Of a stretch of 64,000 bases of DNA, positions 42,494-59,422 are shown piece by piece. Under the pieces are notes generated by a model. That model was not told the DNA's origin, made no database searches, and saw only the letters and a list, made by a program, of their open reading frames with translations. The DNA is from Carboxylicivirga sediminis (GTDB taxonomy: Bacteria; Bacteroidota; Bacteroidia; Bacteroidales; Marinilabiliaceae): positions 248,001 through 312,000 of the forward strand of contig NZ_JAGTAR010000001.1 of the NCBI RefSeq assembly GCF_018156225.1, written 5' to 3'. The number at the start of each line of letters is the position of its first letter. The first letter of the stretch is position 1. The translations under genes were made by a program, and so were the position numbers.

Positions 42494-42521
42494 AAAAAAC
42501 CGCCCCAAAAAAATGAGGCGG
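42494..42521 (-). terminator. Terminator of the hydrogenase operon
   Basis: CCGCC (42500-42504) pairs with GGCGG (42517-42521), followed on the minus strand by six T residues, 22 bp behind the last gene of the hydrogenase run. Confidence 0.7.
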
Positions 42522-42543
42522 CTCCATTATTGAAACATGTATT

Positions 42544-43020
42544 TTATTTATACTCTTCTAAAATACCTTTTACATCTTCAGCTGCTACACGACCATAAAC
42601 TTTATCGCCTACAGTAACAACTGGAGCAAGCCCGCATGCACCAACGCAGCGCAAGCAACTGATAGAGAATTTACCATCAGGTGTGGTTTCACCAACTTTT
42701 ACATCCAGATGACGCTTGAATTCGTCCAACACCTTCTCAGCTCCACGCACGTAGCATGCCGTTCCCATACAAATTGAGATAGGATGCTCTCCTTTTGGAA
42801 TCATCGAGAAGAATGAGTAGAACGTTACGACACCATAAACGTGTGCAACAGACACATTCATTTCATTTGCTACTAACTCTTGAACTTCAGCTGGCAAATA
42901 GCCAAACAATTCCTGAGCTGCATGAAGTGCATTAATCAACTCGCCTCCTTCGTTACCGAGCTTCTTACATACTTCTTTTAATTCTTCCACCTTACCGGCG
43001 GGTAATTTTATATCTGCCAT
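42544..43020 (-). CDS. hydC: NuoE-like [2Fe-2S] subunit of NAD-linked [FeFe] hydrogenase 1
   Basis: A 158-residue thioredoxin-fold ferredoxin homologous to NuoE/HndA. An N-terminal helical part (LINALHAAQELFGYLPAEVQ) precedes the fold with four cluster ligands in CMGTAC and CLRCVGAC. In bifurcating hydrogenases this small subunit carries electrons near the flavin subunit. It is the last gene of the cluster, separated from hydA1 by an 82-bp gap with an unusual repeat, and is followed by a terminator. The paralogue at 58002-58481 opens the cluster. Confidence 0.92.
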   Translation of the reverse strand: MADIKLPAGKVEELKEVCKKLGNEGGELINALHAAQELFGYLPAEVQELVANEMNVSVAHVYGVVTFYSFFSMIPKGEHPISICMGTACYVRGAEKVLDEFKRHLDVKVGETTPDGKFSISCLRCVGACGLAPVVTVGDKVYGRVAAEDVKGILEEYK

Positions 43021-43043
43021 TTTAATTTCCTTTTAAGATAAAA

Positions 43044-43099
43044 GATACAAGTATCAAGTATCAAGACTAACTTGCATCTTGATACTATAATCTTGATAC
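43044..43099. repeat. GTATCAA direct and inverted repeats between hydA1 and hydC1
   Basis: Copies of a heptamer close to GTATCAA occur at 43044-43050 (GATACAA), 43051-43057 and 43058-43064. Inverted copies CTTGATAC occur at 43078-43085 and 43092-43099. Several stem-loops with 8-bp arms can form in the intercistronic mRNA. Confidence 0.75.
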
Positions 43100-43102
43100 T
43101 AA

Positions 43103-44869
43103 CTAGATTTCAATCTTCTTTTTCTTATCGTAATAGTGCGTGTGAAGCAACTCATGCGATTTATGTCCACATGGCTCACCCAGAAATTCGCTATACAGTT
43201 TCTGAACAAATGGGTTTTCATGCGATTTACGCAGCACTTTACCTTTATCTTCCTCATAAATAGCATGCTGACGCTTCTTCAGTACTTCAACATCACCGTG
43301 GTGATATGGCTGACCACCACCACCAATACATCCACCAGGACACGCCATAATTTCAATAGCATGAAACTGTGATTTCCCGGCTCTGATATCTTCTAATAAT
43401 TTACGGGCATTTCCTAATCCGTGAGCAATACCAATATTAATTGGAAGACCATCAAAATCAATGGTTGCCGAACGAATACCTTCAAATCCTCTTAACTCTT
43501 CGAAGTCAAGTTTTGGAAGTGGCTTTTTGGTATGCACCTCGTAAGCGGTGCGCACAGCAGCTTCGATTACACCACCGGTAGTACCGAAGATAACCGCAGC
43601 ACCAGTAGACTCTCCCAGTGGCTGGTCAAAATCATCTTCTTCCAGTGCTTCGAAGTTTAAGTTGGCATTGCGAATCATCTGAGCCAACTCGCGAGTTGAA
43701 ATTGATAAGTTCACGTCTGGATCACCATCTACCTTGAACTCATCGCGTGCACACTCATATTTTTTAGCCAAACAAGGCATCACAGAAACCACAACTACAT
43801 CTTCGCGCTTCTGTTTCAGCTGGTCAGCGAAATAAGTTTTCGCAATGGCACCAAACATTTGCTGAGGCGACTTAGCTGTTGATGGAATATCTATCATATC
43901 AGGGAACTGATGCTCGAAGAAGTTCACCCACCCCGGACAACAAGAAGTTAAGATTGGTAACTTCACATCTTTATCACCCGCTAAATGCTTACCTAAACGA
44001 CCTAACAACTCGGTACCTTCTTCCATAATGGTTAAGTCAGCTGCAAAGTCAGTATCAAATACATGGTCGAAACCCAATTTGCGCAGAGCTGAAACCATTT
44101 TACCGGTCACCAAAGTACCTGCTTCCATGCCAAACTCCTCGCCTAACGCAGCACGAACAGCCGGAGCCGTCTGAACAATCACTGTTTTCTTAGGATCAAC
44201 AATTGCATCCATCACTTTAGCTGAACTATCACGCTCTGTTAAAGCACCAGTAGGACAAACAGCCACACACTGACCACAGAAAGTACAGGCCGAATGATCC
44301 AGATCCATTTCGAAGGCTGGTGCCACAACCGACTCGAAACCACGGTTAACAGCCGAAAGTACACCAACTGTCTGAACTTCGTTACAGGCAGTTTCGCAAC
44401 GGCGACACATGATGCATTTCTCCATTTCGCGCACGATAGCTGGCGACTCATCACTCTTATACGAGTTCTTCTCGCCCTGGTAACGCACTTCGCGAATACC
44501 AAGATTTTGTGCCATTGTCTGTAATTCGCAATCGCCTGACTTAGCACACACCAAACACTCAAACGGGTGATCAGATAAGATCAGTTCCATAACTGTACGA
44601 CGGGCATTTACCACACGAACAGAGTGCGTTTGAATGTCCATACCTTCTGTACACTCTGTTTTACATGCAGGTGCCAAGTTACGACGGCCTTCCACTTCCA
44701 CCACGCAAACACGACATCCGCCTGGCTTATTCTCAATGTTCATATCGTGCAGCTTCATGTGACATAAAGTTGGAATATCCACCCCGATGTTTTTCGCTGC
44801 CTCTAAGATGGTAGTGCCTTTCTCAACAACTACCTTTTTATTATCTATGCTTAATTGAACGATTTCCAT
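43103..44869 (-). CDS. hydA: [FeFe] hydrogenase 1 catalytic subunit (group A, NAD-linked type)
   Basis: A 588-residue catalytic subunit that reduces protons or oxidises H2. Cluster sites in order are: N-terminal [2Fe-2S] (Cys36, 52, 55, 69); His-ligated [4Fe-4S] (His101, Cys105, 108, 114); two [4Fe-4S] clusters (Cys152/155/158/162 and Cys195/198/201/205); then the H-cluster domain. The domain carries L1 TSCCPGW (Cys310 proton relay, Cys311 ligand by alignment to clostridial CpI), L2 MPCLAKKYE (Cys366) and L3 EIMACPGGCIGGGGQP (Cys510, Cys514). A small-subunit-like tail with SHENPFVQKLY ends the protein. Nothing essential is missing. With HydB and HydC it should form a bifurcating enzyme coupling H2 to NADH and ferredoxin, as known for such trimers; bifurcation here is inferred. 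Confidence 0.96.
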   Translation of the reverse strand: MEIVQLSIDNKKVVVEKGTTILEAAKNIGVDIPTLCHMKLHDMNIENKPGGCRVCVVEVEGRRNLAPACKTECTEGMDIQTHSVRVVNARRTVMELILSDHPFECLVCAKSGDCELQTMAQNLGIREVRYQGEKNSYKSDESPAIVREMEKCIMCRRCETACNEVQTVGVLSAVNRGFESVVAPAFEMDLDHSACTFCGQCVAVCPTGALTERDSSAKVMDAIVDPKKTVIVQTAPAVRAALGEEFGMEAGTLVTGKMVSALRKLGFDHVFDTDFAADLTIMEEGTELLGRLGKHLAGDKDVKLPILTSCCPGWVNFFEHQFPDMIDIPSTAKSPQQMFGAIAKTYFADQLKQKREDVVVVSVMPCLAKKYECARDEFKVDGDPDVNLSISTRELAQMIRNANLNFEALEEDDFDQPLGESTGAAVIFGTTGGVIEAAVRTAYEVHTKKPLPKLDFEELRGFEGIRSATIDFDGLPINIGIAHGLGNARKLLEDIRAGKSQFHAIEIMACPGGCIGGGGQPYHHGDVEVLKKRQHAIYEEDKGKVLRKSHENPFVQKLYSEFLGEPCGHKSHELLHTHYYDKKKKIEI

Positions 44870-44903
44870 TCTTCTATCTTTTACTGTTCAAAAATTAGCC
44901 TGG

Positions 44904-46697
44904 TTACTGAATGCTGATTGCACCAAACTTACATTTTTCATAACAAGCACCACACTTAATACATGTCTCCTGACTAATTAAATGAGGTTCTTTCTTATCT
45001 CCGGTAATCGCATCAACCGGACAAACGCGCGAACAAAGTGTACAACCAATACATTTCTCGGCCTCAATCACATACTGCATCAGTGACTTACACTGACCAG
45101 CCGGACATTTACCGTGGCGAACGTGTGCTTCATACTCATCAGCAAAGTTCTCCATGGTTGACAGAACCGGGTTAGGCGATGTTTGACCTAATCCACAAAG
45201 AGAAGTATCCTTAATTACATTACTCAGATTACGTAATAAAGTAAGGTCTTCTTCTGTTCCTTTACCTTCAGTCAGTTTATCAAGCATTTCGTATAAACGC
45301 TTATTACCAATACGACAAGGCGCACACTTACCACACGATTCTTCAACTGTAAAATCTAAATAGAATTTGGCTACAGAAACCATACAATCGTCTTCATCCA
45401 TTACAATCATACCACCTGAGCCCATCATTGAGCCACAAGCTAACAGGTTATCGTAATCGATTGGAATATCTAAATGCTTTTCAGTTAAGCAACCACCTGA
45501 TGGACCACCTGTCTGAACAGCTTTAAACTTCTTACCATCTTTAATACCACCACCAATATCGAAAATAACTTCGCGAAGTGAGGTCCCCATTGGCACTTCA
45601 ATCAGTCCAACATTATTTACTTTGCCAGCCAAAGCAAATACTTTGGTTCCTTTACTCTTTTCAGTACCGATACTACTAAACCACTCAGCTCCTTCGAGAA
45701 TAATAACCGGTATATTGGCATATGTCTCAACATTATTTACGTTGGTTGGCATACCTTTATAACCACTCTCTGATGGGAATGGTGGCTTCACTGTTGGCTC
45801 CCCGCGCAATCCTTCCATGGAGTGAATCAAAGATGTTTCTTCACCACAAACGAAAGCACCTGCACCATAGCGTAATTCAACATCGAAACTAAATCCTGTA
45901 CCGAAAATATCTTCACCTAATAAACCATATTCGCGGGCCTGATTAATGGCAATCTTCAAACGAGAAATAGCCAATGGATACTCAGCACGGATATAAATTA
46001 AACCTTTTGAAGCGCCGGTACAATAGCCGTTAATAGCCATTGCCTCCAATACTGCATGTGGATCTCCTTCAAGAATTGAACGATCCATAAAAGCACCCGG
46101 ATCACCTTCATCGGCATTACAAACCACATATTTTTGCTCAGCTTCCACTTTACGAGTGATGTCCCACTTTAATCCTGTTGGGAAACCACCACCACCACGA
46201 CCGCGAAGACCAGAGTCAATAATCACTTTAATAGCTTCTTCAGGCGTCAGTTCAGTTAATACTTTACCTAAAGCAGCATATCCATCACGAGCAATGTACT
46301 CATCAATATTTTCAGGATTGATAAAACCACAATTACGCAAGGCAATACGTATCTGTTTTTTGTAGAAGCCCATATCTTTCGATTCCGAAACACGTTCCTG
46401 TGTCTCTGGATCAGTATAAAGTAAGCGCTCTACTTTCCGTCCTTTTACTAAATGCTCTGATACAATTTCAGTGGCATCTTCAGGTGTTACCTGCACGTAA
46501 AAAGTATTGTCTGGTACCATCTTAACAACAGGACCTTTCTCACAGAACCCGAAGCAACCGGTTCTCACTACTTGTACTTCATTCTCAAGGCTATTCTCCT
46601 CAATTACTTTCCCAAGATTTTGTACAATTTCCTCACCTTGTGATGCACGGCAGCCAGTTCCGCCACATACAAGGATATGATTCTTATATTTAGCCAT
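44904..46697 (-). CDS. hydB: NuoF-like flavin subunit HydB of [FeFe] hydrogenase 1
   Basis: A 597-residue NADH/FMN subunit. An N-terminal thioredoxin-like [2Fe-2S] domain (about 1-95, CGGTGC and TGCFGFC) precedes the NuoF core. The core has the NADH/FMN glycine-rich loop GRGGGGFPTGLKW, the NADEGDPGAFMDR segment, an SLBB region and the [4Fe-4S] motif ESCGKCAPCRIG. Two ferredoxin-type [4Fe-4S] motifs close the protein (CIGCTLCSRVCP and CIKCGACYEKC). This full three-part layout matches HydB of characterised bifurcating trimers. It lies 34 bp upstream of hydA1. Confidence 0.95.
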   Translation of the reverse strand: MAKYKNHILVCGGTGCRASQGEEIVQNLGKVIEENSLENEVQVVRTGCFGFCEKGPVVKMVPDNTFYVQVTPEDATEIVSEHLVKGRKVERLLYTDPETQERVSESKDMGFYKKQIRIALRNCGFINPENIDEYIARDGYAALGKVLTELTPEEAIKVIIDSGLRGRGGGGFPTGLKWDITRKVEAEQKYVVCNADEGDPGAFMDRSILEGDPHAVLEAMAINGYCTGASKGLIYIRAEYPLAISRLKIAINQAREYGLLGEDIFGTGFSFDVELRYGAGAFVCGEETSLIHSMEGLRGEPTVKPPFPSESGYKGMPTNVNNVETYANIPVIILEGAEWFSSIGTEKSKGTKVFALAGKVNNVGLIEVPMGTSLREVIFDIGGGIKDGKKFKAVQTGGPSGGCLTEKHLDIPIDYDNLLACGSMMGSGGMIVMDEDDCMVSVAKFYLDFTVEESCGKCAPCRIGNKRLYEMLDKLTEGKGTEEDLTLLRNLSNVIKDTSLCGLGQTSPNPVLSTMENFADEYEAHVRHGKCPAGQCKSLMQYVIEAEKCIGCTLCSRVCPVDAITGDKKEPHLISQETCIKCGACYEKCKFGAISIQ

Positions 46698-46708
46698 AGT
46701 GCAAAAAA

Positions 46709-47116
46709 CTATTCGTTTTTATTCTCTTTTACTGTTTCGTAATTTACCGGGATGATACCATCCACCAGTTCACCTCTAATAATGTACTTCTCAATGATTT
46801 CATTGGCCTTTTTATTATCCACATGACCAAAAACCACTGGTGCACTATTGGGCAACGTGACTTCGATAGTTGGTTCTGCATAGCAGTAACCCATGCATCC
46901 GGTTTGAGTAACTATGGCATCTATTGCCTGACGATCCATTTCTTCAATCATATGGTTCATCACTTCCTTAGCTCCTGAAGCAATTCCACAGGTAGCCATC
47001 GACACTTTCACCTGAACCAGTTTATCAGGATGGTCGCTTTTCTCGCGCAAACTCACTTTTGTTTGCAGTTCATCGCGCAATTTGCGCAAATCAGCAAGAG
47101 ATTTAACTTTTGACAT
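46709..47116 (-). CDS. Thioredoxin-like [2Fe-2S] ferredoxin
   Basis: A 135-residue protein with a helical N-terminus (about 1-35) and a thioredoxin-like [2Fe-2S] fold (ligands in SMATCGIASG and TGCMGYCYAEP). It resembles the extra ferredoxin encoded with some NAD-linked hydrogenases. It lies 11 bp before hydB1 and 64 bp after the HATPase gene, linking the regulatory block to the structural genes. It probably shuttles electrons to or from the HydB flavin, or assists a sensor protein; which one is not clear from sequence. Confidence 0.85.
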   Translation of the reverse strand: MSKVKSLADLRKLRDELQTKVSLREKSDHPDKLVQVKVSMATCGIASGAKEVMNHMIEEMDRQAIDAIVTQTGCMGYCYAEPTIEVTLPNSAPVVFGHVDNKKANEIIEKYIIRGELVDGIIPVNYETVKENKNE

Positions 47117-47180
47117 AGCGATTGGTTATTATTAATTACACATTCTTTTGTTTGTCTGGTTGCCCGATTTAATCTGGCAT

Positions 47181-47726
47181 TTAATCAAATTCTATCTTTA
47201 ATTCCCTTAAATTTTCCTCAATCATTTCCTTCAAAAAACTTGTTACTTTCGGCAGACGAATGTCTACATCTCCTAATACCTCTTTAACCTCATTGGTGCT
47301 TATTGCAAACTGTTCATCTCCACATTGAACTTCAAATTGCAGATTAACACCTTCATTGCCTGTCATCATCATGGCTGCTGTGGATGCAATGTCACCCATT
47401 GGCGGCCTGTCAATGTGCTTTCGTCCAAACTGAGCAGTTAAAGTCGTACCAACACCAAGCGTCGATTCAATCTCCACATGTCCACCGGTTAGTTCTGCAT
47501 TTTGCTGTATAAGTGGAATGCCCATCCCAACCTTACGAGTAGTGCGTGATGTATAAAAAGGATCGCGCACTTTTTGTAGCGTAACCTCATCCATACCTTT
47601 CCCATCATCCTGCACCTTTATGGTCAGCCAGTATTCATCCGTCACTATGGATAGTGTTATATTTTCAGCTTTGGCTCTAACCGAGTTCTGGACAATGTCC
47701 ATGATATGCATTGATAAATCCTTCAT
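47181..47726 (-). CDS. Stand-alone GHKL/HATPase protein
   Basis: A 181-residue ATP-binding protein with a histidine-kinase-type ATPase fold: N-box around MDIVQNSVRAKA, G1 box DDGKGM, phosphate-binding FYTSRTTRKVGMGIPL. No dimerisation domain, phospho-accepting histidine or membrane segment is present. An extra C-terminal region of about 65 residues follows. Its start codon overlaps the stop of the PHP gene by one base (47726), so the two are translationally coupled. It could act as a serine or histidine kinase or an anti-sigma-like switch on a partner in this cluster. It belongs to a set of signalling genes seen next to NAD-linked [FeFe] hydrogenases in Clostridia and Thermotogae (recalled, not checked). 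Confidence 0.82.
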   Translation of the reverse strand: MKDLSMHIMDIVQNSVRAKAENITLSIVTDEYWLTIKVQDDGKGMDEVTLQKVRDPFYTSRTTRKVGMGIPLIQQNAELTGGHVEIESTLGVGTTLTAQFGRKHIDRPPMGDIASTAAMMMTGNEGVNLQFEVQCGDEQFAISTNEVKEVLGDVDIRLPKVTSFLKEMIEENLRELKIEFD

Positions 47727-48469
47727 TACCTCAATTCAATTACTCTTCTTCCTTCAACATTGTGCAATGCCTTCCGAAACTCCTCGAAACTGGGCTCTTC
47801 CATTTCTACAATGGTATAATGTGTACCTATCTGCTCAGGAAAATGAGCATCGGATGAGCGCAGCACCGTAAATTGTTTAAGCTCGGGATGCTTATTAAGC
47901 TGTTCCTCCACATTATATCGCGAGCTTATTCCAATAGCGTCGGGGGATATATCAAATGGCATAAATCCCAACTGGCTGTATACACTAAAGCTTGGTCTGA
48001 AGATGTGTGCTGGTATAAACAATCCATCCAGCTCTCTCACTTTATCCTCCACCTCATCAATCGACTGTTCAATGGCACTAATCAGTAACCGCTCTTCCTG
48101 TCCAAGTATTTCTTCATTGACATCGACCCACACCTGATGCCCAAACCGTTCTGGGTCATTGGGTATCTCAGGTAGATGCTTATCCAGATACACCTGAAAA
48201 GCGTCAAGTTTTTCAAAATTTTCAAAGAACGTTAAACAGTGTACTTCTTCTTTGGTAGTGACCTCGACTCCGCAAAACACTGTTACTCCCTTTTGCTGTC
48301 CAACTTTATACACTTCGGCACATTGCCTGGTGCTGTTATGGTCAGTTATTCCAATTATATCTATTCCCCGCTCTAATGCTTTCTCTACAATGACAACCGG
48401 ACTCATCTCTAAACTTCCACATGGAGATAAGACGGTGTGCATGTGCAAATCGGCCTTAAAGCGTTTCAT
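47726..48469 (-). CDS. Cytoplasmic PHP-domain phosphoesterase of the hydrogenase cluster
   Basis: A 247-residue protein without signal peptide. PHP metal motifs are DLHMHT (His9, His11), GITDHN (Asp43-His44), a Glu in GVEVTTKEEVH, a His in IPAHIF and the final RSSDAH. All expected ligands look present. Its product may be a protein-phosphate phosphatase or a small-molecule phosphatase; the coupling by a 1-base overlap to the HATPase gene, and the 2-bp spacing from the DRTGG gene, suggest it opposes a kinase in the same switch (inference). Confidence 0.85.
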   Translation of the reverse strand: MKRFKADLHMHTVLSPCGSLEMSPVVIVEKALERGIDIIGITDHNSTRQCAEVYKVGQQKGVTVFCGVEVTTKEEVHCLTFFENFEKLDAFQVYLDKHLPEIPNDPERFGHQVWVDVNEEILGQEERLLISAIEQSIDEVEDKVRELDGLFIPAHIFRPSFSVYSQLGFMPFDISPDAIGISSRYNVEEQLNKHPELKQFTVLRSSDAHFPEQIGTHYTIVEMEEPSFEEFRKALHNVEGRRVIELR

Positions 48470-48471
48470 TA

Positions 48472-48807
48472 CTATTCATTAAGCATTTGATACAATTTAC
48501 CGGATAACTCAAACGTCTCCATTTCACTGCTTAACAAAGGTATCCCTTCATCATTACTCTGATTAATGGTGTTCTCATCCGCCTCCAATCCTTTAACTAT
48601 AATTACAGCTGCTACCTCTTTAAGTGATGCCACTGCCATTACATTGCGGTGAGTCTGCAGGGTTATCCACACATCGCCCTCATCCACATTCCCCATTACA
48701 TCGCTCAATAAGTCAGATGTATAACCACCTGTTATTTCATTCTGAAGGCCTTCTTCGCCTCCAATTACTTTGAGATCCAGTTTTTCAATGATATCAGCAA
48801 CCTTCAT
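48472..48807 (-). CDS. DRTGG-domain protein 1
   Basis: A 111-residue single-domain protein of the DRTGG fold. It shares with the second copy at 50678-51034 a signature SDLLSDVMG (there SDLMSDVLT) and a parallel strand-helix layout ending in a short hydrophobic strand. DRTGG domains occur next to CBS and phosphotransacetylase domains and are thought to bind small ligands or nucleotides. Encoded 2 bp before the PHP gene. The function is unknown beyond association with hydrogenase signalling. Confidence 0.8.
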   Translation of the reverse strand: MKVADIIEKLDLKVIGGEEGLQNEITGGYTSDLLSDVMGNVDEGDVWITLQTHRNVMAVASLKEVAAVIIVKGLEADENTINQSNDEGIPLLSSEMETFELSGKLYQMLNE

Positions 48808-48856
48808 CTTTATATATATTTTAATGCCTCAGACATAGACCTGCGTCTCTAACTAA

Positions 48857-50251
48857 TTACATATTAGCTTCATCCTTAGCACCTTTTTTCTTACAATCTT
48901 TATCTAAACGATCTTTACCCCAGGTTTTTTCAATAATACGAATAGAATGCTGAGGATCCAGTTTCTTACTCTTTTCCATCATGCGCTGCAGAAAGACACA
49001 ATTCGACAAGTTAGCTTCTTTACGTACAATGTCTTTAGCCAAACTTTCACAATTTGGAGCACCGCAGGCTCCACAGTCAATACCCGGCAAATAGCACATC
49101 ATTCGACGAACACGTTCCATTTTCTTCAATGCAATACTCATGTCTTCGTCAAGCACCATCATCGAGCGTGGTTCAACCCTGCCAACGTAGTTATTATTCT
49201 TAATCAATTGCCTGTGAGCATCGGAGATATTCTGCACATACTTGCCAGATGCATTGATGCGTTCTGCCCTATTCTTGAGCCGTTCAACAGTTAGAAATCT
49301 GTTTTCGGTTAACAAAACACCACCGGCACAACTCTGATCACAAGCTCTCAATTCCAGAAAGTCTACATTTATAATTTCATCATTTTCAACTTTCTCTAAG
49401 AAAGAAATAACATTATGAATCTCATCTATCGCCAGGCAACGGCCTGTCATCTGACTGGCCTCTCCATCAGTAAGGCTCCAGTTGAGTCCTTTGGGAGAAA
49501 GGTAAGGCACTGTTTCTTCACATGAGAATTGGGTGTTACTGCGTGTTTTCAGCACGTGGTACACTTTATTATACAGAAAGTCCATGTTGATAACACCATC
49601 AACATTTGACATGTCATCTCCTACCGGACTCTTTACTGTTGCTATTTTGGAAGCACAGGGTGTCACATAAAATACCCCAATCTCATCGGCACTTTTTCCT
49701 TCTTCCTGAAGTAATTCGCGATAATACATAGCCGTGGTATCAATTGGCGGCTTTATAGGTATAATATTATTTACCAATCCGGGGAAACGCACCTGAATGA
49801 GGCGAACTATTGATGGACAGAAAGCACTTATCATTGGCTTGTCTCTATCCGACTTTAGTTCATCCAGCATCGATTCATTGATGACATCAACGGTAGCTTC
49901 AGCCGGCACCACATGAGTAAATCCCAGGCCTTTGAGCACATCAATGATTTCACACTCTTTTATTTGCTTAGAAAACTGACCAATAAAAACCGACGGTAGA
50001 ACAGCCACACGGTATTTAAAATTGAAGATTTTCTCGAAATCATCCTGCTCAACGTAGAAAGCATCTACCGGACATGATTTCATACATTCGCCACAGTCAA
50101 CACACCAGTTTTTTCGAATAGAGGCAATACCATCGCGGATACGAATGGCATCGGTTGGACATACATTCATACAATGGGTACATCCAAAGCATAAATCCTT
50201 ATCCACTTTTAATGCATGATAAAACTGTTGCTCGCTCATAGCCATTCTCAA
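48857..50251 (-). CDS. Hydrogenase-like iron-sulfur protein, presumed sensory [FeFe] type without PAS domain
   Basis: A 464-residue protein. Two N-terminal [4Fe-4S] clusters (Cys21/24/27/31 and 50/53/56/60) lead into a shortened H-cluster domain. The L1 equivalent is SAFCPSIV (Cys145 kept as ligand; Phe144 replaces the proton-relay Cys). L2 is VTPCASKIA (Cys199). L3 is LRACDQSCAGG (Cys304, Cys308). A C-terminal [4Fe-4S] module (Cys393, 396, 401 and 418; CGACGAPNC) follows. All four H-cluster ligands remain but the proton relay is lost. That fits a sensor with slow or no turnover, as in the group C/D hydrogenases, rather than a metabolic enzyme. It overlaps neither neighbour but directly abuts the RsbW-like gene (0 bp), its likely signalling partner. 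Confidence 0.85.
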   Translation of the reverse strand: MRMAMSEQQFYHALKVDKDLCFGCTHCMNVCPTDAIRIRDGIASIRKNWCVDCGECMKSCPVDAFYVEQDDFEKIFNFKYRVAVLPSVFIGQFSKQIKECEIIDVLKGLGFTHVVPAEATVDVINESMLDELKSDRDKPMISAFCPSIVRLIQVRFPGLVNNIIPIKPPIDTTAMYYRELLQEEGKSADEIGVFYVTPCASKIATVKSPVGDDMSNVDGVINMDFLYNKVYHVLKTRSNTQFSCEETVPYLSPKGLNWSLTDGEASQMTGRCLAIDEIHNVISFLEKVENDEIINVDFLELRACDQSCAGGVLLTENRFLTVERLKNRAERINASGKYVQNISDAHRQLIKNNNYVGRVEPRSMMVLDEDMSIALKKMERVRRMMCYLPGIDCGACGAPNCESLAKDIVRKEANLSNCVFLQRMMEKSKKLDPQHSIRIIEKTWGKDRLDKDCKKKGAKDEANM

Positions 50252-50674
50252 TTAACTTGTCAATTTAGTTGTAAGCTCAACGACTGTTCCTTCACCAACT
50301 TTACTGCTAATATCAATTACATCGGCATTTCTCTTCATATTAGGCAATCCCATGCCTGCACCAAATCCCATCTCTCTCACCATGGCCGATGCTGTTGAGT
50401 AGCCCACCTGCATGGCTAAATCAATATCAGGTATCCCTGGCCCTTCATCCTCAATACGAATATGTATTCGGCTAGGATCAATATCAACTAACACCATTCC
50501 TTTGTATGCATGAGCTACAACGTTCACTTCTCCTTCGTATAGAGCTACTACAATGCGCTTTATTATTTTCGGATCAACATTTAGCTGTTTAAGTACTTTT
50601 TTGACATTACTGGCTGCATTACCAGCCTTGGCAAAATTTCCTCCTTCAACTTCGTAGCTAAACTTCATATTCAA
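50252..50674 (-). CDS. RsbW/RsbT-like serine kinase or anti-sigma ATPase
   Basis: A 140-residue HATPase of the anti-sigma regulatory factor type: N-box in VVALYEGEVNVVAHAY, G1 box DEGPGIPD, G2 loop GFGAGMGLPNM. Such proteins phosphorylate an STAS antagonist or bind a sigma factor. No STAS or sigma gene lies in this block, so the phosphorylated partner must be elsewhere or be one of the cluster proteins. The SpoIIE phosphatase upstream is the natural opposing enzyme. It abuts the sensory hydrogenase gene and lies 3 bp behind a DRTGG gene. Confidence 0.85.
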   Translation of the reverse strand: MNMKFSYEVEGGNFAKAGNAASNVKKVLKQLNVDPKIIKRIVVALYEGEVNVVAHAYKGMVLVDIDPSRIHIRIEDEGPGIPDIDLAMQVGYSTASAMVREMGFGAGMGLPNMKRNADVIDISSKVGEGTVVELTTKLTS

Positions 50675-50677
50675 TTA

Positions 50678-51034
50678 TCAATACACAGGACTAACACCTG
50701 CATCGTGCAACATCCCAATTGTTCTGAACATCGAATACTTACATTCTATCAGAACAGTATTATTTTCACTAGCCACATCAATCATCTCAGGGGTCACCTT
50801 TTTGCCCCGCACAAACACTATACAGTTAATATCCGCCATTTCAGCAGTTCTTACAGTTTGCATATTGGTTAAGCCGGTAATCAGCACCAGGTGTTCTGAC
50901 TCAAGGGTCAAGACATCACTCATTAAATCACTGGCAAATGCATACCTCACTTCATTTTCAATAAGATCAACACCACAAACAACTTGGGCCTCCAGCAGTT
51001 CGGCTATTTTTCTTATTTTAATTGATGTCGCCAT
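50678..51034 (-). CDS. DRTGG-domain protein 2
   Basis: A 118-residue single-domain DRTGG protein, paralogous to the one at 48472-48807 (shared SDLMSDV core, similar length, divergent otherwise). It precedes the RsbW-like ATPase by 3 bp. Thus each DRTGG copy in this cluster is grouped with an ATPase gene. The ligand is unknown. Confidence 0.78.
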   Translation of the reverse strand: MATSIKIRKIAELLEAQVVCGVDLIENEVRYAFASDLMSDVLTLESEHLVLITGLTNMQTVRTAEMADINCIVFVRGKKVTPEMIDVASENNTVLIECKYSMFRTIGMLHDAGVSPVY

Positions 51035-51286
51035 ATTTGTTATTCTTAGCTAGGTTAATGTTGCTAATTATTAAAGAAATATTTCCTGATTACTACAGCA
51101 AACTAATACTAATATACCGAGAAAAAAAAGGCCAGAAGTCTGTTTTCAATAATACAGAACAAGTCTAAATTATTTCCCAACAAATCACTTGGCAGGCAGA
51201 GGAATAACTTACAATTTAAAAGCACTACTAAAAACTGAATATCAATCTAGAAGCTTTTGAAGATTCATGATTTACATCATGTTTAC
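51035..51286. other. Gap inside the hydrogenase regulatory block
   Basis: A 252-bp AT-rich gap between the SpoIIE gene and DRTGG gene 2, one of the two large gaps in the cluster. No coding signal was found. It may hold an internal promoter but no consensus -7/-33 pair was seen on the minus strand. Confidence 0.4.
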
Positions 51287-52477
51287 TTACATATATTCTA
51301 TTGTTACATCTTTCATGAATCTGACTTCCAAAAGACGCATGATGCGCTTTACAACTGTGCGCCTGATTTCCAGCTCCACAGGCAGATTAGGATCCTGATG
51401 TGCTACATTTATTCTGGTACCGTTAAGGATGTGAATGCGGTCACTTTCGAATAGCATCTTTATAATTTGGTCAGCAGGTCCCTTGGAAAGTCGTGTATTA
51501 ACCGTATAGGTTTCCAACAAACGAGCCACTTTACCCAGTGTCAGAATACCTTCTGTAACCAGGTTGATACTTTCCATGTAGGAAACGGGCGGCAATTCGT
51601 TGTCTTCCGACTCAAAACCGGCATCAAATTTTAGTGCCAGCTCACGAGCGACAATTTCAGCGGTTGTTCCGCCGGCAATAATTTTACGCCCCTTAAACTG
51701 CTTGACTTTTAAAGAGAAAGCAAAATCATTACTATCTTCAAAAGGCGGGCCAGTAATTAACAGTAACTTGCGTGGCTCCCGATAGTATATAACGCCACAT
51801 GAAGAGTCGTCTTTGGGCTTATCGCCATCATGTAACTGGGCCATATTAATAACTTTTTGCGCCAGCTTACCCGAGGATGCAAATGGGGTGTACTTCACAA
51901 TCTTTTGCACATACTCGCCTAACTCTTCTCTACCCCAACCAAAGGGGAAAGCTCTTGTGCCCATGCCAGACTGTACAATACCATCTGACCAGAAAAAAAT
52001 CCTATCCTCCAACCGGGCCTTAAACTTGCAGATACGCAGTTTCTTACCCTTATTTTGTTCTCCGTCAAGAATTAAATCTTCCCAGCCAGGATCATATTCA
52101 TCCATCCCCCTCATTATCATGCACAACGGATTATCGTATTCCACAATAGTGGTGGTTCCGTCATCCTCAATATCAATAATTGTAAAAGTGCTGTAACTAA
52201 CCTTTCGCACACTACATACCGGTAAGGTATTCATAATTATTTCAGCTGAACGGGCCACTTCCCTGTGTTCTATTGTGAAGTTCATAGCCATTGAAGCCGT
52301 TAATGTTGCCAGAACATTAGCCTTAACACCACTTCCCATACCATCGGAAAGCACTGCAATTATTCGCCCCTCCTCCTTTATCCGCCTGGAAAGAAAGACA
52401 TCGCCACAGATTATCTCACCAACATGATTATTTTGGCGACACTCAACGTCAATAAAGTATTTATTTACCGGATCCAT
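51287..52477 (-). CDS. SpoIIE/PP2C-family serine phosphatase
   Basis: A 396-residue phosphatase. The SpoIIE/PP2C catalytic domain (about 1-235) has the metal-binding aspartates in AVLSDGMGSG, FFWSDGI and KDDSSCGV. A C-terminal domain of about 160 residues without obvious family follows and could be the regulatory or partner-binding part. It should remove phosphate from a protein phosphorylated by the RsbW-like kinase. The start overlaps the PAS sensor gene by 17 bp, which predicts coupled translation and a shared complex. SpoIIE-type phosphatases next to sensory hydrogenases are known from Clostridia. Confidence 0.9.
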   Translation of the reverse strand: MDPVNKYFIDVECRQNNHVGEIICGDVFLSRRIKEEGRIIAVLSDGMGSGVKANVLATLTASMAMNFTIEHREVARSAEIIMNTLPVCSVRKVSYSTFTIIDIEDDGTTTIVEYDNPLCMIMRGMDEYDPGWEDLILDGEQNKGKKLRICKFKARLEDRIFFWSDGIVQSGMGTRAFPFGWGREELGEYVQKIVKYTPFASSGKLAQKVINMAQLHDGDKPKDDSSCGVIYYREPRKLLLITGPPFEDSNDFAFSLKVKQFKGRKIIAGGTTAEIVARELALKFDAGFESEDNELPPVSYMESINLVTEGILTLGKVARLLETYTVNTRLSKGPADQIIKMLFESDRIHILNGTRINVAHQDPNLPVELEIRRTVVKRIMRLLEVRFMKDVTIEYM

Positions 52478-54320
52478 GCTTTTCGCCTAACTGTTGCGCT
52501 TCGATTATGCTATTGAGGGTCTTCTCTGTTTTTGAGGCACTCTCGCCAAGTAAGAAAGCAATCTGCTGAACCGTTTCCAGGTTCTCCTTAATCACGTCAC
52601 GGGCCCGCTTTATTACTTCTTCCTTTCTAACCTCTGGGGTTATCAAGTCCCGTATTATTCCTCCAACTATTTCATGCCGCTTAATGGTAAAAACAGATAC
52701 ATTAATGATTGAATTGGCAAATTCAACATCACGCTCCAATACATCTTGTCCCGACTGCAAAACCGATGCAAACACCTTATGAAAATCGACCAGACTTTTC
52801 AATTCAGCCCCTTTTAAACCTGGCACTACTTCAGCTATTTCGCGTGCATCATCTCCAATCATCTCCACAAAGCGCTCATTGGCTTCAATCACATTAAGTC
52901 CTTCATCAACTATAACTACACCCGCTCTTAACTTATTTAACATGGCCGTAGTTGTTTCAGCAGCTTCACGAGCCAGTTTTTCTTCTACCCTGGCCTTCTC
53001 CTCACTTATCACTAAAGCTTCCTGCGTTTTCCTGTATTTTTCATTGGATGCATTCACTTTATTGACATATGATCGCAGCTTTTTGATCGAGAAAGTGTAG
53101 CACTGTTCATAGTCGGTTAAGCCCTGTAAGTGGGCCACTGCAAATTCTCTGCATGATGGATAGCCACAAGCACCACACCCCAACTGATCTTCTTGTTTCG
53201 ATTTACCCATATCGGCCAGAACAGCATCTATCTGTTCCTTAGATGGAATTGGCAGTCGTATATCTTTAGATTTAAAATTTCTGTTTAAATCAAGGGTTTT
53301 AAACTCTTCAATATCCAGGCGCCACTGATAGGCATCAATGGCTTTCATGCGCTTATTAACATACTTAATCACCTGCGAACGCCGGGTAAACTTCTTACCT
53401 CCCTGTGATGTACCGGGTCCTTGTATGCAACCCTTGCAATAGAACAGATCGAGGTGCTGATTAAGCTGGTTTTCCTGCTTAAATTCTTTAATTGATTGCA
53501 AAAAGTTAGTTCGACCTTCGGTGATAATGATATCTCCTTCGAGCAAACCTTGATTGATATCTACCGCTTGAAACAATCCATGGGATATAGGAAACAGTCC
53601 ACCTTTGCGGCCCAATGGCGGATCAAACTCACTAAATTCAACGGTTTTTTCAGTGATGCCCTTTTGAGCAAACAACTGCCGCAATTCAACAAACGTAAGT
53701 ACGCCATCTATATGACCATCGGTATGATAAAATTGCTTCTTTTCATCTTTAGCTGCAGTACATGCTGTGAGGTAAACGATTTTAACATCATCGCCATAGC
53801 GCTTGTGAATAATTTTTGCCATGGCAATGTATGGCGGCACAATTGGTGCCAGGTTTTCGACCAATTCCGGCTCCTGCTTCTCAATATAGCTAACTACAGG
53901 CGGACATTTGGTGGTAATATAGTGCTTACCCTGGAAACTGTCTACCAGATCCTTATATTTGTATGCCACCAAGTCAACCGCAAAAGACATTTCCGTAACA
54001 ATGTCAAAGCCAATTTCCCGAATCATTGCTACAAACTTTCGATAATCTGCCACATCTGTAAATTCGCCAGATATAGCCGGATCACAAATAGCAGCAACCT
54101 TATCATTTTGACCAATTAAACTCTTAACGATCTCTATATCGCTACGGTACTGAATAGCCTGCTGAGCACACATGGTAACGCACTGACCGCAGCCAATACA
54201 CCTGTCAGGCAGTATTTGTGCATATTTGTCAGCTATTTTGATGGCCTTGGCCGGACATACTCTAACACAAGTATAACTAAGATTACATTTATCCTTATCA
54301 GTTACAATCAATTGCCCCAT
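52461..54320 (-). CDS. hydS: Sensory [FeFe] hydrogenase with PAS domain (HydS-like, group C)
   Basis: A 619-residue cytoplasmic protein. N-terminal iron-sulfur sites (Cys12, 18, 22 and Cys41, 44, 47, 51) precede an H-cluster domain. L1 is ITTKCPPVV (Cys139 ligand; Lys138 in place of the proton-relay Cys), L2 is LTACTAAKDEK (Cys187) and L3 is YCKGCIQGPG (Cys295, Cys298; a shorter Cys-X2-Cys spacing instead of Cys-X3-Cys). Next come a [4Fe-4S] module (Cys382, 385, 390, 407), a coiled-coil linker (about 412-455) and a PAS domain (about 460-565). This is the domain order of HydS proteins that are thought to sense H2 or redox state. Its 3' end overlaps the SpoIIE phosphatase gene, the probable output. 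Confidence 0.92.
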   Translation of the reverse strand: MGQLIVTDKDKCNLSYTCVRVCPAKAIKIADKYAQILPDRCIGCGQCVTMCAQQAIQYRSDIEIVKSLIGQNDKVAAICDPAISGEFTDVADYRKFVAMIREIGFDIVTEMSFAVDLVAYKYKDLVDSFQGKHYITTKCPPVVSYIEKQEPELVENLAPIVPPYIAMAKIIHKRYGDDVKIVYLTACTAAKDEKKQFYHTDGHIDGVLTFVELRQLFAQKGITEKTVEFSEFDPPLGRKGGLFPISHGLFQAVDINQGLLEGDIIITEGRTNFLQSIKEFKQENQLNQHLDLFYCKGCIQGPGTSQGGKKFTRRSQVIKYVNKRMKAIDAYQWRLDIEEFKTLDLNRNFKSKDIRLPIPSKEQIDAVLADMGKSKQEDQLGCGACGYPSCREFAVAHLQGLTDYEQCYTFSIKKLRSYVNKVNASNEKYRKTQEALVISEEKARVEEKLAREAAETTTAMLNKLRAGVVIVDEGLNVIEANERFVEMIGDDAREIAEVVPGLKGAELKSLVDFHKVFASVLQSGQDVLERDVEFANSIINVSVFTIKRHEIVGGIIRDLITPEVRKEEVIKRARDVIKENLETVQQIAFLLGESASKTEKTLNSIIEAQQLGEKHGSGK

Positions 54321-54324
54321 ACGT

Positions 54325-54585
54325 TTACTTTTCCTTTTCTACATCGAAGTAGCTGGTTAGAATTTCATACACATTATCAACGGTCACCTGCGAAAACAAA
54401 GTCGTATCTATTTTTAATACCGGACCTTCTTCACACTTACCACCACACAAATCGCCATGGAAGAAGACCTCGGCAGATAACTGATGCTCTTTCAGAAACT
54501 CTTTCACTACTTCTAAAACATCTTTATTTCCTCTTGAGAAACATGAGCTTCCAAGACAAATAATTATTTCATGCTTAGTATCCAT
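54325..54585 (-). CDS. Small thioredoxin-like [2Fe-2S] ferredoxin (detached HydB N-domain)
   Basis: An 86-residue protein that is only a thioredoxin-like [2Fe-2S] domain: ligands in CLGSSC and DLCGGKC. It corresponds to the N-terminal domain that is fused to HydB1 but missing from HydB2, so hydrogenase 2 may obtain this centre as a separate polypeptide. It lies 4 bp before hydS, so it could serve the sensor instead. Confidence 0.88.
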   Translation of the reverse strand: MDTKHEIIICLGSSCFSRGNKDVLEVVKEFLKEHQLSAEVFFHGDLCGGKCEEGPVLKIDTTLFSQVTVDNVYEILTSYFDVEKEK

Positions 54586-54653
54586 ACTCCTAAAAACTCG
54601 TATTTCAAGTTCAAAATAGTAAAAAGAAACCGACCTAAGCCGGTTTCAGAAAA

Positions 54654-56444: not shown

Positions 56445-56461
56445 AACAATTGGATGAAAGG

Positions 56462-57709
56462 TTAGTAAATCATTTCTTCTCGGAAATTTTCCACAATGGA
56501 TGAGAATGAATTAGCGACTGATTGCCCTAATCCACATTTAGCGGTTATACGCATTGCTTCGGCTAAATCCAATAATTTATCCAAATATACAGATGGTTGC
56601 TCACCTTTTTTAACGGCCTGAATACCTAAAAGCAATTGCTGGGTTCCAACACGACATGGCGTGCACTGACCACAAGATTCCTCAACAAAGAAGTCAAGAT
56701 AATTATGCAACACGTTATACATTGAACGTGATGAATTAAAAATCATCATGGAACCACCAGTTGGAAGAGATGTTCCGCGCAATTTGCCCTGATAGCCAAT
56801 TATCGTTTTTTCAAATCGTTTGCGAGGCACACAAAACCCTGAGGCCCCACCTACCTGAACTGCTTTGGAATCACCATCACCAAAATCGTCCACAAACTTT
56901 TGCAGGGACATACCAAACTCCAGTTCATAGATGCCTGGTATGGGAGTATCGCCCGAAACAGAAAACACTTTAGAACCTCTTGAATCCTGCACACCTAAGT
57001 CTTTAAATTTTTCAGGCCCGTATTTCATTATTGAATACGTATGTGCGAGGGTTTCTACATTATTAATAACGGTTGGACGGTTCATGTATCCACAATCAGT
57101 TGGGAATGGAGGTTTATTTCGAGGTTCACCTCGCTTTCCTTCCATACTCTCAAATAAAGCACTTTCTTCTCCGCAGATGTAGGCGCCACTTCCCATAAAT
57201 ATTTCTACTCTGAAGTTAACACCACACTCATCTAGTATGCCATGAAAATCATCGATAATTTCTAAAAGCTGGCTTTTTAGGAAACTGTATTCACCCCTGA
57301 GGTAAATAAATCCTTGTTTAGCACCAATAATGTGGGCACATACTGCCATTCCTGTCAACACCTTATGTGGTACACTTGATAGAATTTCGCGATCTTTAAA
57401 AGTGCCAGGTTCACCTTCATCAGCATTACAAATCACATATTTATTCTCGGCTTCTGCTTCAGCTGCCAGTTTCCATTTTAAGCCGGTTGGGAAACCTGCT
57501 CCTCCACGCCCTTTCAAACCGGAACTGATTAAATCATTGATCACTTCATCATTGCTTCGGGCTAGTGTTTTCTTTAATATTGTTTCGGTATCGTGCTCAT
57601 TCTTAAAAATGAGGTCGAGTCGTTGTAAGTTCTTTTTCATCTGTTTAAGTTTATCTATAGTTGGCAGGTGAAACTCTCGCTGAATTTGATTCATCCTAAT
57701 GGATATCAA
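56462..57709 (-). CDS. hydB: NuoF-like flavin subunit of [FeFe] hydrogenase 2, core domain only
   Basis: A 415-residue NuoF homologue with the NADH/FMN loop GRGGAGFPTGLKW, NADEGEPGTFKDR, the SLBB region and the [4Fe-4S] motif ESCGQCTPCRVG with its distant Cys (ITAKCGLGQS). Unlike HydB1 (597 residues) it lacks both the N-terminal thioredoxin-like domain and the two C-terminal ferredoxin clusters. The 86-residue ferredoxin at 54325-54585 may supply the first. Loss of the C-terminal clusters would change the electron path, so bifurcation is less certain for this enzyme. It ends 17 bp before hydA2. Confidence 0.92.
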   Translation of the reverse strand: MISIRMNQIQREFHLPTIDKLKQMKKNLQRLDLIFKNEHDTETILKKTLARSNDEVINDLISSGLKGRGGAGFPTGLKWKLAAEAEAENKYVICNADEGEPGTFKDREILSSVPHKVLTGMAVCAHIIGAKQGFIYLRGEYSFLKSQLLEIIDDFHGILDECGVNFRVEIFMGSGAYICGEESALFESMEGKRGEPRNKPPFPTDCGYMNRPTVINNVETLAHTYSIMKYGPEKFKDLGVQDSRGSKVFSVSGDTPIPGIYELEFGMSLQKFVDDFGDGDSKAVQVGGASGFCVPRKRFEKTIIGYQGKLRGTSLPTGGSMMIFNSSRSMYNVLHNYLDFFVEESCGQCTPCRVGTQQLLLGIQAVKKGEQPSVYLDKLLDLAEAMRITAKCGLGQSVANSFSSIVENFREEMIY

Positions 57710-58001
57710 TTAGTATGATACAGTTTGCGTTCGTTTTACTTGCCTGATAATTACTTGAACGACCAAAGGTTCTAAATCAGAGTCTTTTAATATTAATCGA
57801 CCCTCAATTGGTTCGTTTAAACTATGATGTCACACTTGATAGAATACATTAAAGCTATATTGCCTTATTCTCGTAAAACCAAATGTTTAATACATAATAT
57901 GTTGAGACGCATGCCACAGTCAACAATAAATATAGACCTGGCATTGGTGTTTACAGGTTATGAACTAGGTCATATAGATAAGGTGTATTGTTGCTTTGAT
58001 A

Positions 58002-58481
58002 TTAATTAGCACTAATTTCCTTCTTCTTATAATTCATAATTACTTCGCGCACTTTTTCAGGCGTAAGCTCCGTATATGGTTCATCATTGATGAGCATTGC
58101 CGGCCCCTTATGACACTGACCTAAGCAATTGGTTTCTAACAGTGTAAATTTCCCATCATGCGTTGTTTCGCCCAGGTTAATCTTTAGTACTGTTTCTAAC
58201 TCTTTAATAATTTGATTTTTACCATGCATCATGCAGGTAATTGTCTTACAAACGCGAATAACATACTTACCCAAAGGCTTGGTGTGGAGGAAGGAGTAGA
58301 AAGTTGCAGTGCCATAAACCTGGGCTGCCGAGATATTTAATTCGCGGGCAACTTCTACCATGGCATCTTCAGAAATGTGCTGCTCTTGGTGTACAATTCC
58401 TTGAAGAATGGGTAAAAGGCTTTCCATTGTCCGGCCATGTTGGTCAGCCAATCCTTTTACCAATTGTTTAACTTCAGTCAT
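58002..58481 (-). CDS. hydC: NuoE-like [2Fe-2S] subunit of [FeFe] hydrogenase 2
   Basis: A 159-residue NuoE/HndA-type ferredoxin with the four ligands in CKTITC and TNCLGQC. It opens the whole co-directional run and is separated by a 292-bp gap (57710-58001) from the NuoF-like gene. No gene was recognised in that gap. With 54654-56444 and 56462-57709 it completes a second trimeric hydrogenase. Confidence 0.92.
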   Translation of the reverse strand: MTEVKQLVKGLADQHGRTMESLLPILQGIVHQEQHISEDAMVEVARELNISAAQVYGTATFYSFLHTKPLGKYVIRVCKTITCMMHGKNQIIKELETVLKINLGETTHDGKFTLLETNCLGQCHKGPAMLINDEPYTELTPEKVREVIMNYKKKEISAN

Positions 58482-58744
58482 AACTGTTGATTTAAGGGAT
58501 TAAAATAAACTTGGTATAAAGAATTATTTCTTTAAAAGTTAAGTTTTTTTAACACTTAATTCCATGATTTTTCTCATAATTATAGAAATTATTCGCTATT
58601 AATACTGATTCTTAATAGCTATCTATCAACATATTATTACCTATTTATGTATTTCTATTACTTTAATGGTCCACATCCAACATTTCTTCATTGAGTTTTA
58701 ATAATCAGACCAATTTTCCGATCTTTGCGCAAAATACTAGTCAA

Positions 58745-59422
58745 GTGAATCAGAAAGAACTTCAGCAAATGATCCAGGAGGGTGAGCACCAGACCCAGGA
58801 TTTTAAGTTTGCCATAACCGATACCAAAAAAATTGCCCGCTCAATAGCTGCCTTTGCCAATACAGATGGTGGCCGATTACTAATTGGCATAAAAGACAAT
58901 GGTAAAATCGCAGGCGTTGAATCAGATGAGGAATACTACATGATTGAATCGGCTGCCAAGCGCCACTGCCGCCCATCTGTTAATTTCGAAACACGAAAAT
59001 GGGAAATAGAAGGAAAAACAGTTCTGGAGATTATTATTGAAAAAAGTAGCAAAAAACCTCATTCAGCGCCAGATAAAGATGGTAAACCTACCTACTATGT
59101 CAGAGTGAAAGATCAAAATCTGGTAGCTAATCGTATCTTAACTGAGGTGTGGAAACGTGAAAAAGAGCCAGGGGGTGCCTTACTTAAAATTAAATATGCC
59201 GAAAGTAAACTATTAACTTATCTTGGTATACATGGCTATATCACCTTCTCAAAATTCTGCGGCATGGCCAATATCAGCCCACGCAAAGCAGAGAAGATTC
59301 TAATAAATCTTATCCATATGAAGGTGATTGAGATGGATATTACCGAATCTCAGATCTTTTATAAGATGAACAGCAAACCTGAATACCCAGAACCTAATCA
59401 AGGTTTGCCCGAAGATTGGTAG
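58745..59422 (+). CDS. AlbA_2/Schlafen-like ATP-binding domain protein with winged helix
   Basis: A 225-residue protein. The N-terminal AlbA_2 domain (about 1-120) has the family-typical EGEHQTQDFKF, AFANTDGGRLLIGIKDNG and AGVESDEEYYMIE segments; the C-terminal about 70 residues look like a helix-turn-helix. A GTG start at 58745 is chosen over a TTG 18 codons earlier because relatives begin at this NQKELQ sequence and because GATCTTTG, a near match to the -7 box, lies in between (58723-58730). Members are linked to nucleic-acid binding and regulation. It is divergent from the hydrogenase run. Its 3' end overlaps the convergent serine-hydrolase gene by 25 bp. Confidence 0.8.
   Translation: MNQKELQQMIQEGEHQTQDFKFAITDTKKIARSIAAFANTDGGRLLIGIKDNGKIAGVESDEEYYMIESAAKRHCRPSVNFETRKWEIEGKTVLEIIIEKSSKKPHSAPDKDGKPTYYVRVKDQNLVANRILTEVWKREKEPGGALLKIKYAESKLLTYLGIHGYITFSKFCGMANISPRKAEKILINLIHMKVIEMDITESQIFYKMNSKPEYPEPNQGLPEDW

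Follow-up and report, generated by a model that had tools for sequence, protein, structure and literature searches.

A conserved sixteen-gene locus joining two NAD-linked [FeFe] hydrogenases to hydrogenase-like sensor candidates in Carboxylicivirga and related Bacteroidota

Does a single sensory block control two bifurcating hydrogenases in the marine anaerobe Carboxylicivirga sediminis, or do the genes that lie together there fall into separate modules? The question is raised by a locus within a stretch of 64,000 nucleotides, referred to here as the window (positions 248,001 to 312,000 of contig NZ_JAGTAR010000001.1, from a genome of 5.81 Mb), for which an original prediction had proposed fifteen co-directional genes comprising two differently built bifurcating hydrogenases and one sensory module controlling both. 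The named components were confirmed by domain searches to lie where they had been placed, all on the (-) strand, although the genes running from 58481 down to 42544 number sixteen. The explanation preferred here, to which a probability of about 0.6 is given, is that the locus consists of three neighbouring modules, probably three transcription units, for hydrogen (H2)-linked control of two hydrogenases. Gene content and order, ligand cysteines, bifurcation-type residues and hairpins can all be read directly from the DNA. The gene labels, which are our own, run in order E1, F1, A1, D1, S1, P, R1, W, S2, R2, PHP, K, D2, B2, A2 and C2:

58002..58481, (-) strand: E1, NuoE/HydC-like [2Fe-2S] subunit of the first hydrogenase (PF01257, 163.6 bits)
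56462..57709, (-) strand: F1, NuoF-like protein without the N-terminal 2Fe-2S and C-terminal 4Fe-4S domains and with non-bifurcating residues
54654..56444, (-) strand: A1, HydA of the first hydrogenase (NF040763, 887.6 bits, cut-off 765; P1-P3 motifs)
54626..54647, (-) strand: terminator-like hairpin 3' of A1
54325..54585, (-) strand: D1, small [2Fe-2S] thioredoxin-like protein
52461..54320, (-) strand: S1, HydS-type sensor candidate with 2x[4Fe-4S], H-domain, FeS motif, long helix and PAS
51287..52477, (-) strand: P, SpoIIE-type phosphatase (PF07228, 34.2 bits; conserved Asp residues)
51160..51172, (-) strand: promoter-like TAATTTAGACTTG within the P-R1 gap
50678..51034, (-) strand: R1, stand-alone DRTGG protein (PF07085; model pLDDT 94.6, best match 2ioj)
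50252..50674, (-) strand: W, SpoIIAB-like GHKL ATPase (TIGR01925, 62.5 bits, below the cut-off of 135; conserved ATP-site residues)
48857..50251, (-) strand: S2, hydrogenase-like sensor candidate without PAS (M2e/group D marks)
48472..48807, (-) strand: R2, second DRTGG protein
47726..48469, (-) strand: PHP, PHP-domain protein (PF02811, 43.2 bits; conserved His/Asp residues)
47181..47726, (-) strand: K, HATPase_c protein (PF02518, 60.6 bits)
46709..47116, (-) strand: D2, thioredoxin-like, HydD-like protein with three conserved Cys
44904..46697, (-) strand: B2, HydB with N-terminal 2Fe-2S and C-terminal 4Fe-4S domains and bifurcating residues
43103..44869, (-) strand: A2, HydA of the bifurcating set (NF040763, 906.5 bits, cut-off 765)
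42544..43020, (-) strand: C2, HydC (NuoE-like; PF01257, 168.6 bits)
42496..42525, (-) strand: terminator-like hairpin 3' of C2
40826..42286, (-) strand: HydG maturase gene, next downstream and outside the sixteen (TIGR03955, 522.6 bits, cut-off 312.15)

Residues that separate bifurcating from non-bifurcating enzymes have been published (PMC7311640), the clusters termed B2-B5 are described as absent from non-bifurcating homologues (PMC9304861), and the enzyme of S. wolfei is likewise without B3 and B4 (PMC11406978). The window's B2 protein has the domains of the Bfu family, namely an N-terminal 2Fe-2S, FMN, SLBB, NADH_4Fe-4S and a C-terminal 4Fe-4S domain (matches to PF01257, PF01512, PF10531 at 25.7 bits, just below the cut-off of 27, PF10589 and Fer4 models), and its closest solved chain is 7q4v_B, the HydB of A. 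woodii (E 2e-261). Residues were counted in rows whose alignment covered 70% or more of the query, which kept 65 of the 72 assigned to B2 and all 59 assigned to F1. In B2-type rows, alanine stands at the place of Tm232 (65/65), methionine at Tm234 (64/65) and proline in GGPSG (65/65), the window protein having A202, M204 and GGPSG; F1-type rows have threonine, lysine and an alanine replacing the GGPSG proline (59/59 in each case), and bifurcating residues in 0/59. The E1-F1-A1 set thereby matches the published non-bifurcating pattern of T/S at Tm232, K/S/A at Tm234, no GGPSG and no extra Fe-S domains. A Phe/Tyr column at B2 position 282 also divides the sets (F in 64/65 B2-type rows, Y in 59/59 F1-type rows), but the published Phe/Tyr difference near FMN is printed with the number 367, which this position does not fit. 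Seven short B2-assigned rows were dropped, among them a Peptoclostridium NuoF (L111) assigned to B2 by BLAST but with non-bifurcating residues, so that a row's nearest window protein does not by itself prove its type; one row that was kept as B2-type (L100, 15347-17287) is without the usual A-F-M motif spelling.

By these marks, only B2-A2-C2 of the two NAD-linked hydrogenases looks bifurcating, and E1-F1-A1 looks to be of the non-bifurcating NADH-dependent HydABC type. The two [FeFe] enzymes are thus differently built, as had been supposed, but a pair of bifurcating enzymes is rejected by residues and domains, as F1 lies outside the published description. Trees of the HydA subunits had been proposed to test whether the two came separately: in a careful tree of 42 rows, in which some reference rows are long and unsure in their own places, A1 (19 rows) and A2 (18 rows, including Parabacteroides, Cetobacterium and Acetoanaerobium) form two distinct groups, with support of 100/100 and 100/99. 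Forcing 35 A1 and A2 rows from the order and Parabacteroides together cost 63 log units (p-AU, from the approximately unbiased test, 0.0004), the clade for this test having been named after a quick tree was viewed. On this phylogeny the A1 and A2 HydA are separate old lineages, and a tandem duplication of HydA is rejected by both the tree and the topology test.

Genes within the modules are packed closely, in line with the overlaps and 0-4 bp spacings first noticed: S1 and P overlap by 17 bp and PHP and K by 1 bp, and gaps of 0 bp (W-S2), 2 bp (R2-PHP), 3 bp (R1-W) and 4 bp (D1-S1) are found. A terminator-like hairpin follows A1 in 17 of 22 family A1-D1 gaps, the scan covering those of 25-700 bp, against 0.4 in shuffled sequence; the same is true within 160 bp of A1 in 16 of 20 chosen loci from the order (0.2 shuffled), many with differing stems, and the hairpin in the window has a T tail. 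Another follows C2 in 15/32 loci (0.0 shuffled), and the remaining 14 gaps have 0 or 1 hairpin each, the P-R1 gap having one in 33. An element of the form TAATTTAGA[TC]TTG lies in the P-R1 gap of 12 of the 14 genus loci, with 0.02 expected in the window for TAATTTAGACTTG. The -7 element of Bacteroidota is TAnnTTTG, to which this element is near; a looser -7-like pattern occurs in 21/34 family gaps, a count without a shuffled control. Scans of the region are uninformative by themselves, that for E. coli-type promoters giving 49 against 45.1 expected, and the two named hairpins are credible because they are conserved across loci. Hence the sixteen genes are probably not one operon, and these signals suggest three transcription units, the ends of which we infer. 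Separate transcription of the two hydrogenase sets, named with the original prediction as a result that would count against it, is what the sequence predicts.

The likeness of both sensor candidates to catalytic HydA is weak (PF02906, 123.0 bits for S1 and 74.4 bits for S2), yet the cysteines that would bind an H-cluster are kept: C139, C187 and C298 of S1 in 52/52 rows and C295 in 51/52, and C145, C199, C304 and C308 of S2 in 49/49. Both also retain Cx2Cx4Cx16C. The marks of M2f, which has a PAS domain, and M2e, which has none and has Ser/Thr at M353, are listed in PMC8163306. S1 shows those of group C (M2f), including the four H-cluster cysteines, a PAS match and a PAS-like region in its structural model (pLDDT 80.7), which matches HydA chains. 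No PAS was found in S2 by domain search, and threonine occupies the M353 place in 46/46 rows, together giving the marks of group D (M2e). By pattern, the third H-cluster loop of S1 reads CxxC in 43/54 rows, CxxxC in three (R. albus, Monoglobus and a paralogue on contig C54) and neither in eight, two of which show CxxC in a separate alignment view; the S1 loop is one residue shorter than that of R. albus and the C54 paralogue. The latter belongs to a second D1-S1-P unit (G000:C54, ~14.2-19.2 kb; L116:6210-11161), close to R. albus in layout, its S1 copy having the CxxxC third loop; the gene next to this unit, after it, is for a monomeric hydrogenase of group B (TIGR04105, 503.7 bits, cut-off 450).

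Two sensor candidates accompanied by phosphatase- and kinase-type genes in one conserved locus, as the original prediction had it, can be upheld. The SpoIIE/SpoIIAB partner switch comprises a GHKL kinase, a SpoIIE phosphatase and a STAS antagonist. W and P are present, but no STAS family is listed by domain search for the sixteen proteins and R1 models as DRTGG, and a STAS-type switch is therefore rejected; for K, Pfam lists no histidine-kinase acceptor domain. Of the two proteins described as small ferredoxins, four cysteines are retained in D1 alone (43/43 rows), with three in D2 (52, 52 and 55 of 55 rows).

All sixteen genes are found in one order at 27 of 41 mapped loci of the same GTDB family, in nine genera and with S1 identity as low as 63%. 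The map comprises the window and 40 loci, from a family in which 66 genomes had any S1 match: G069 (added later as L127 and L128) and G021, G027, G031 and G043 (S1 partial or in pieces) lie outside it, and the other genomes with matches have weak paralogue matches only. Related genomes are not independent, and the scripted choice of start sites produced artefactual lengths or gaps for F1 in L055 and L056 and for some short A1 and D1 rows. The nearest named relative among the genomes compared is Carboxylicivirga mesophila JCM 18290 (L043, family Marinilabiliaceae), with an identical S1 (100%). An order shared by nine genera argues that the arrangement is not due to chance, and gives no support to the idea that the block as a whole reached this species recently. 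At L047, L052, L064, L068, L069 and L081 the order agrees up to the end of the contig or fetched stretch; L079 agrees through P, with no R1 in its final 2 kb, and L075 from S1 to PHP, being broken thereafter. Modules are parted elsewhere: L061 and L062 have E1-F1-A1-D1-S1-P only, with A2 on another contig, L065 has S1 to C2, with E1-F1-A1-D1 absent there and found in part on another contig (L122), and L084 has S1 alone. L078 retains an intact S1-P and bifurcating module, but A1 and D1 are reduced to scraps (L078:4890-6413, in S1 orientation) and the genome has one HydA match, an apparent decay of the non-bifurcating set; L085 has S1-P-B2-A2-C2 in a genome that has lost the other HydA. B2 is split into two open frames at L066:14239-16222 and L123:6013-7973, by either sequencing error or decay.

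The locus had been presented as that of one Bacteroidota member; it is not peculiar to that member, being found again across the family and partly also elsewhere in the order. Among 198 genomes of the order, A1-type HydA (at 61% identity or more) was detected in 81, S2 (at 1e-80) in 55 and S1 in 58 of the 90 with a match, those kept having a match past residue 600. A1 and S2 co-occur in 36 genomes and lie within 12 kb of one another in 20 of these, a count uncorrected for relatedness, S2 being downstream on the same strand in 17; A1 and S1 co-occur in 40 and lie within 20 kb in nine. The 20 order loci were picked mainly for a second HydA near A1, and are not a random sample. In L089-L094, L096 and L097, the order runs from A1 to R1-W-S2-R2-PHP-K-D2-B2-A2-C2 and D1-S1-P is missing in between, and in L087, L089, L095 and L100, P and S1 lie after C2 on the opposite strand. 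The pairing of hydrogenases is widespread in the order, and a D1-S1-P unit lying between the two sets chiefly characterises the window's family. L125 and L126 run from R1 to C2 and lack E1-F1-A1; their genomes have a single HydA match at 1e-100, and such S1 matches as they have are weak. L119, from a different family of the phylum, places C2-B2-A2-S1 just ahead of E1-F1-A1; similar parts are put together there in another way, with the two hydrogenase kinds paired around a sensor.

The wider comparison of gene order that had been proposed found the same order in nine family genera and parts of it in Clostridia, for which plasmid-collection records (L106-L115) and papers were used, Thermotoga loci lying outside the fetched set. 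In Subdoligranulum (L112), S2, W and R1 are divergent from C2-K-D2-B2-A2; Parabacteroides (L110) has D2-B2-A2-C2 with no sensor nearby; and in R. albus 7, 2Fe-2S proteins and HydS with an overlapping SpoIIE gene adjoin a hydrogenase-like gene, adhE and Rex.

In the preferred explanation, unit 1 (E1-F1-A1) would encode an [FeFe] hydrogenase that is NADH-linked and independent of ferredoxin, of the same kind as Syntrophomonas Hyd1ABC and of use at low H2. Unit 2 (D1-S1-P) would supply an H2 sensor of the HydS-PAS type coupled to a SpoIIE-type phosphatase, comparable with HydS of R. albus and HfsB/HfsC of Thermoanaerobacterium. Unit 3 (R1 to C2) would hold a bifurcating HydABC together with a PAS-less HydS-type sensor of its own (S2), a PHP protein, and two each of GHKL ATPases and DRTGG proteins. 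The H2 pressures that NADH can support by itself are low, at 2.2-40.2 Pa (PMC7311640), and ferredoxin should carry the bifurcating type to higher pressure. Most likely, the level of H2 would set the share of NADH going to H2 alone rather than together with ferredoxin, and the balance could be set by two sensors that differ in their H-domains. The sensing of H2, the action of kinases and phosphatase on their targets and the direction of control are what we infer, the DRTGG proteins being a guess at those targets.

Several observations weigh against this explanation. The CxxC loop of S1, in place of CxxxC, means that its H-cluster is not assured. The hairpin is missing from five of the 22 A1-D1 gaps, a terminator scan of the whole region gave 11 against 11.5 expected and hence no excess by itself, and D1 starts just 40 bp past the first hairpin, such that read-through into it is possible. 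S1-P adjoins the bifurcating set with no E1-F1-A1 there in L065, L078 and L085, and may thus serve both sets. The support as a whole consists of sequence and genomic context.

That S1-P and S2-W/K jointly control both sets from one transcript, as first proposed, would agree with the common strand, the tight spacing inside modules, the single order at 27 of 41 loci, the scarcity of hairpins in the P-R1 gap and the persistence of S1-P beside the bifurcating set once the other HydA had gone (L078, L085), which partly favours a shared module. One sensory module over two enzymes is nevertheless not borne out by the gene structure, given the hairpins after A1 and C2, the promoter-like element before R1 and the separation of modules in other genomes, and a single operon of this kind seems unlikely. 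The same separation, with modules partly elsewhere in other genomes, and the sensor-free bifurcating set of Parabacteroides would suit a neighbourhood clustered by shared inheritance, each module being regulated alone or constitutive; this is doubtful in view of an order held over nine genera and the closeness of A1 and S2 in 20 of 36 genomes, uncorrected though that is. S1 and S2 might instead be redox or structural Fe-S relics binding no H-cluster, for which their weak likeness to HydA, the CxxC loop and the scarcely detectable motifs of some group C1 proteins (PMC11406978) could be cited. Such a reading is distinctly improbable, as the ligand cysteines are kept and TmHydS and TamHydS, of like architecture, bind an H-cluster (PMC10055695, PMC8163306).

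A broader version of the three-module explanation is offered tentatively. The locus may be a two-sensor, two-hydrogenase H2-control system fixed in a group of anaerobic Bacteroidota, in which a group C sensor would work through a SpoIIE phosphatase, and one of group D through a SpoIIAB-like ATPase and DRTGG proteins; tuned to different H2 ranges, the two sensors would switch NADH disposal between ferredoxin-independent and bifurcating hydrogenases. W-S2-DRTGG might then provide the output route that is missing for group D sensors without PAS, as a switch free of STAS.

Some features of the surroundings may be added. A terminator-like hairpin lies between C2 and the same-strand hydG, and hydE is on the same contig, ~226 kb from the locus. 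Divergent from E1, at 58691-59422 on the (+) strand, is a gene with a Schlafen/AlbA_2 domain. The true start of F1 is probably the ATG near 57640, the median relative having 392 aa, which would make the E1-F1 gap ~360 bp. As called, this gap is unusually long, at 292 bp here and 360 bp in C. mesophila, compared with 0-79 bp in 11 of 14 genus loci, where two zero-length gaps may be start-site artefacts.

How [FeFe] sensory hydrogenases pass on their signal is an open question, and signal transduction by PAS-less group D sensors is posed as such in PMC8163306. The gene order is kept over many genera and S2 has a fixed place in it, flanked by an ATPase of SpoIIAB-like type and a DRTGG protein, so that the locus offers concrete candidates for partners; named strains exist, C. 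mesophila JCM 18290 among them. It also pairs hydrogenases expected to work at different H2 ranges, making it a natural system in which to study the choice that fermenters make between the two.

The individual parts are already published, as is the occurrence of the two hydrogenase types together in a genome, and the locus is a real, conserved arrangement of known parts. No description of the combined locus was recognised in searches of an open-access library, in which most papers were compared by title and the opening of the abstract. Group A3 enzymes are published in Bacteroides (PMC12578642), group C3 genes are usually beside A3, strains with the non-bifurcating sub-type II nearly always also hold the bifurcating type, and in three Bacteroidota, which are named, a single cluster contains two bfuT sensor genes (all PMC11406978); both hydrogenase types around an R1-K block are not described in the accessible part of that paper on the Hydrogenedentota and Bacteroidota clusters. 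B2-A2-C2 is like the Bfu family HydABC (HydDB group A3) of A. woodii, T. maritima and T. kivui in domains and residues, but sits here in a ten-gene module with S2, W, K, R1, R2 and PHP. The three cysteines of D2 recall HydD of A. woodii, for which a prediction that it is without a cofactor has been described (PMC6288185). F1 resembles Syntrophomonas Hyd1ABC and Hydrogenedentota sub-type II in being without extra Fe-S domains and in having T, K and A at the diagnostic places, whereas E1-F1-A1 is here joined to a sensor-phosphatase unit and a bifurcating set. D1-S1-P shares a 2Fe-2S protein, HydS-PAS and an overlapping SpoIIE gene with the R. albus hydS cluster, Thermoanaerobacterium hfsABCD and the phosphatase-linked HydDB group C3 (PMC11837493, PMC5037454). 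Of these, HfsB has been described as carrying PAS and HfsC as a serine phosphatase (PMC11837493), and an R. albus cluster of this type falls 111-fold in co-culture, for which H2 sensing was proposed (PMC6776011); by contrast with the R. albus unit, D1-S1-P lies between two NADH-linked hydrogenases and S1 has a CxxC rather than a CxxxC loop. S2 shares with TamHydS (group D/M2e) the absence of PAS, Cx2Cx4Cx16C, threonine at the M353 place, and an adjoining HATPase gene and group A hydrogenase (PMC8163306), but is here half of a fixed W-S2 neighbour pair with DRTGG proteins on both sides.

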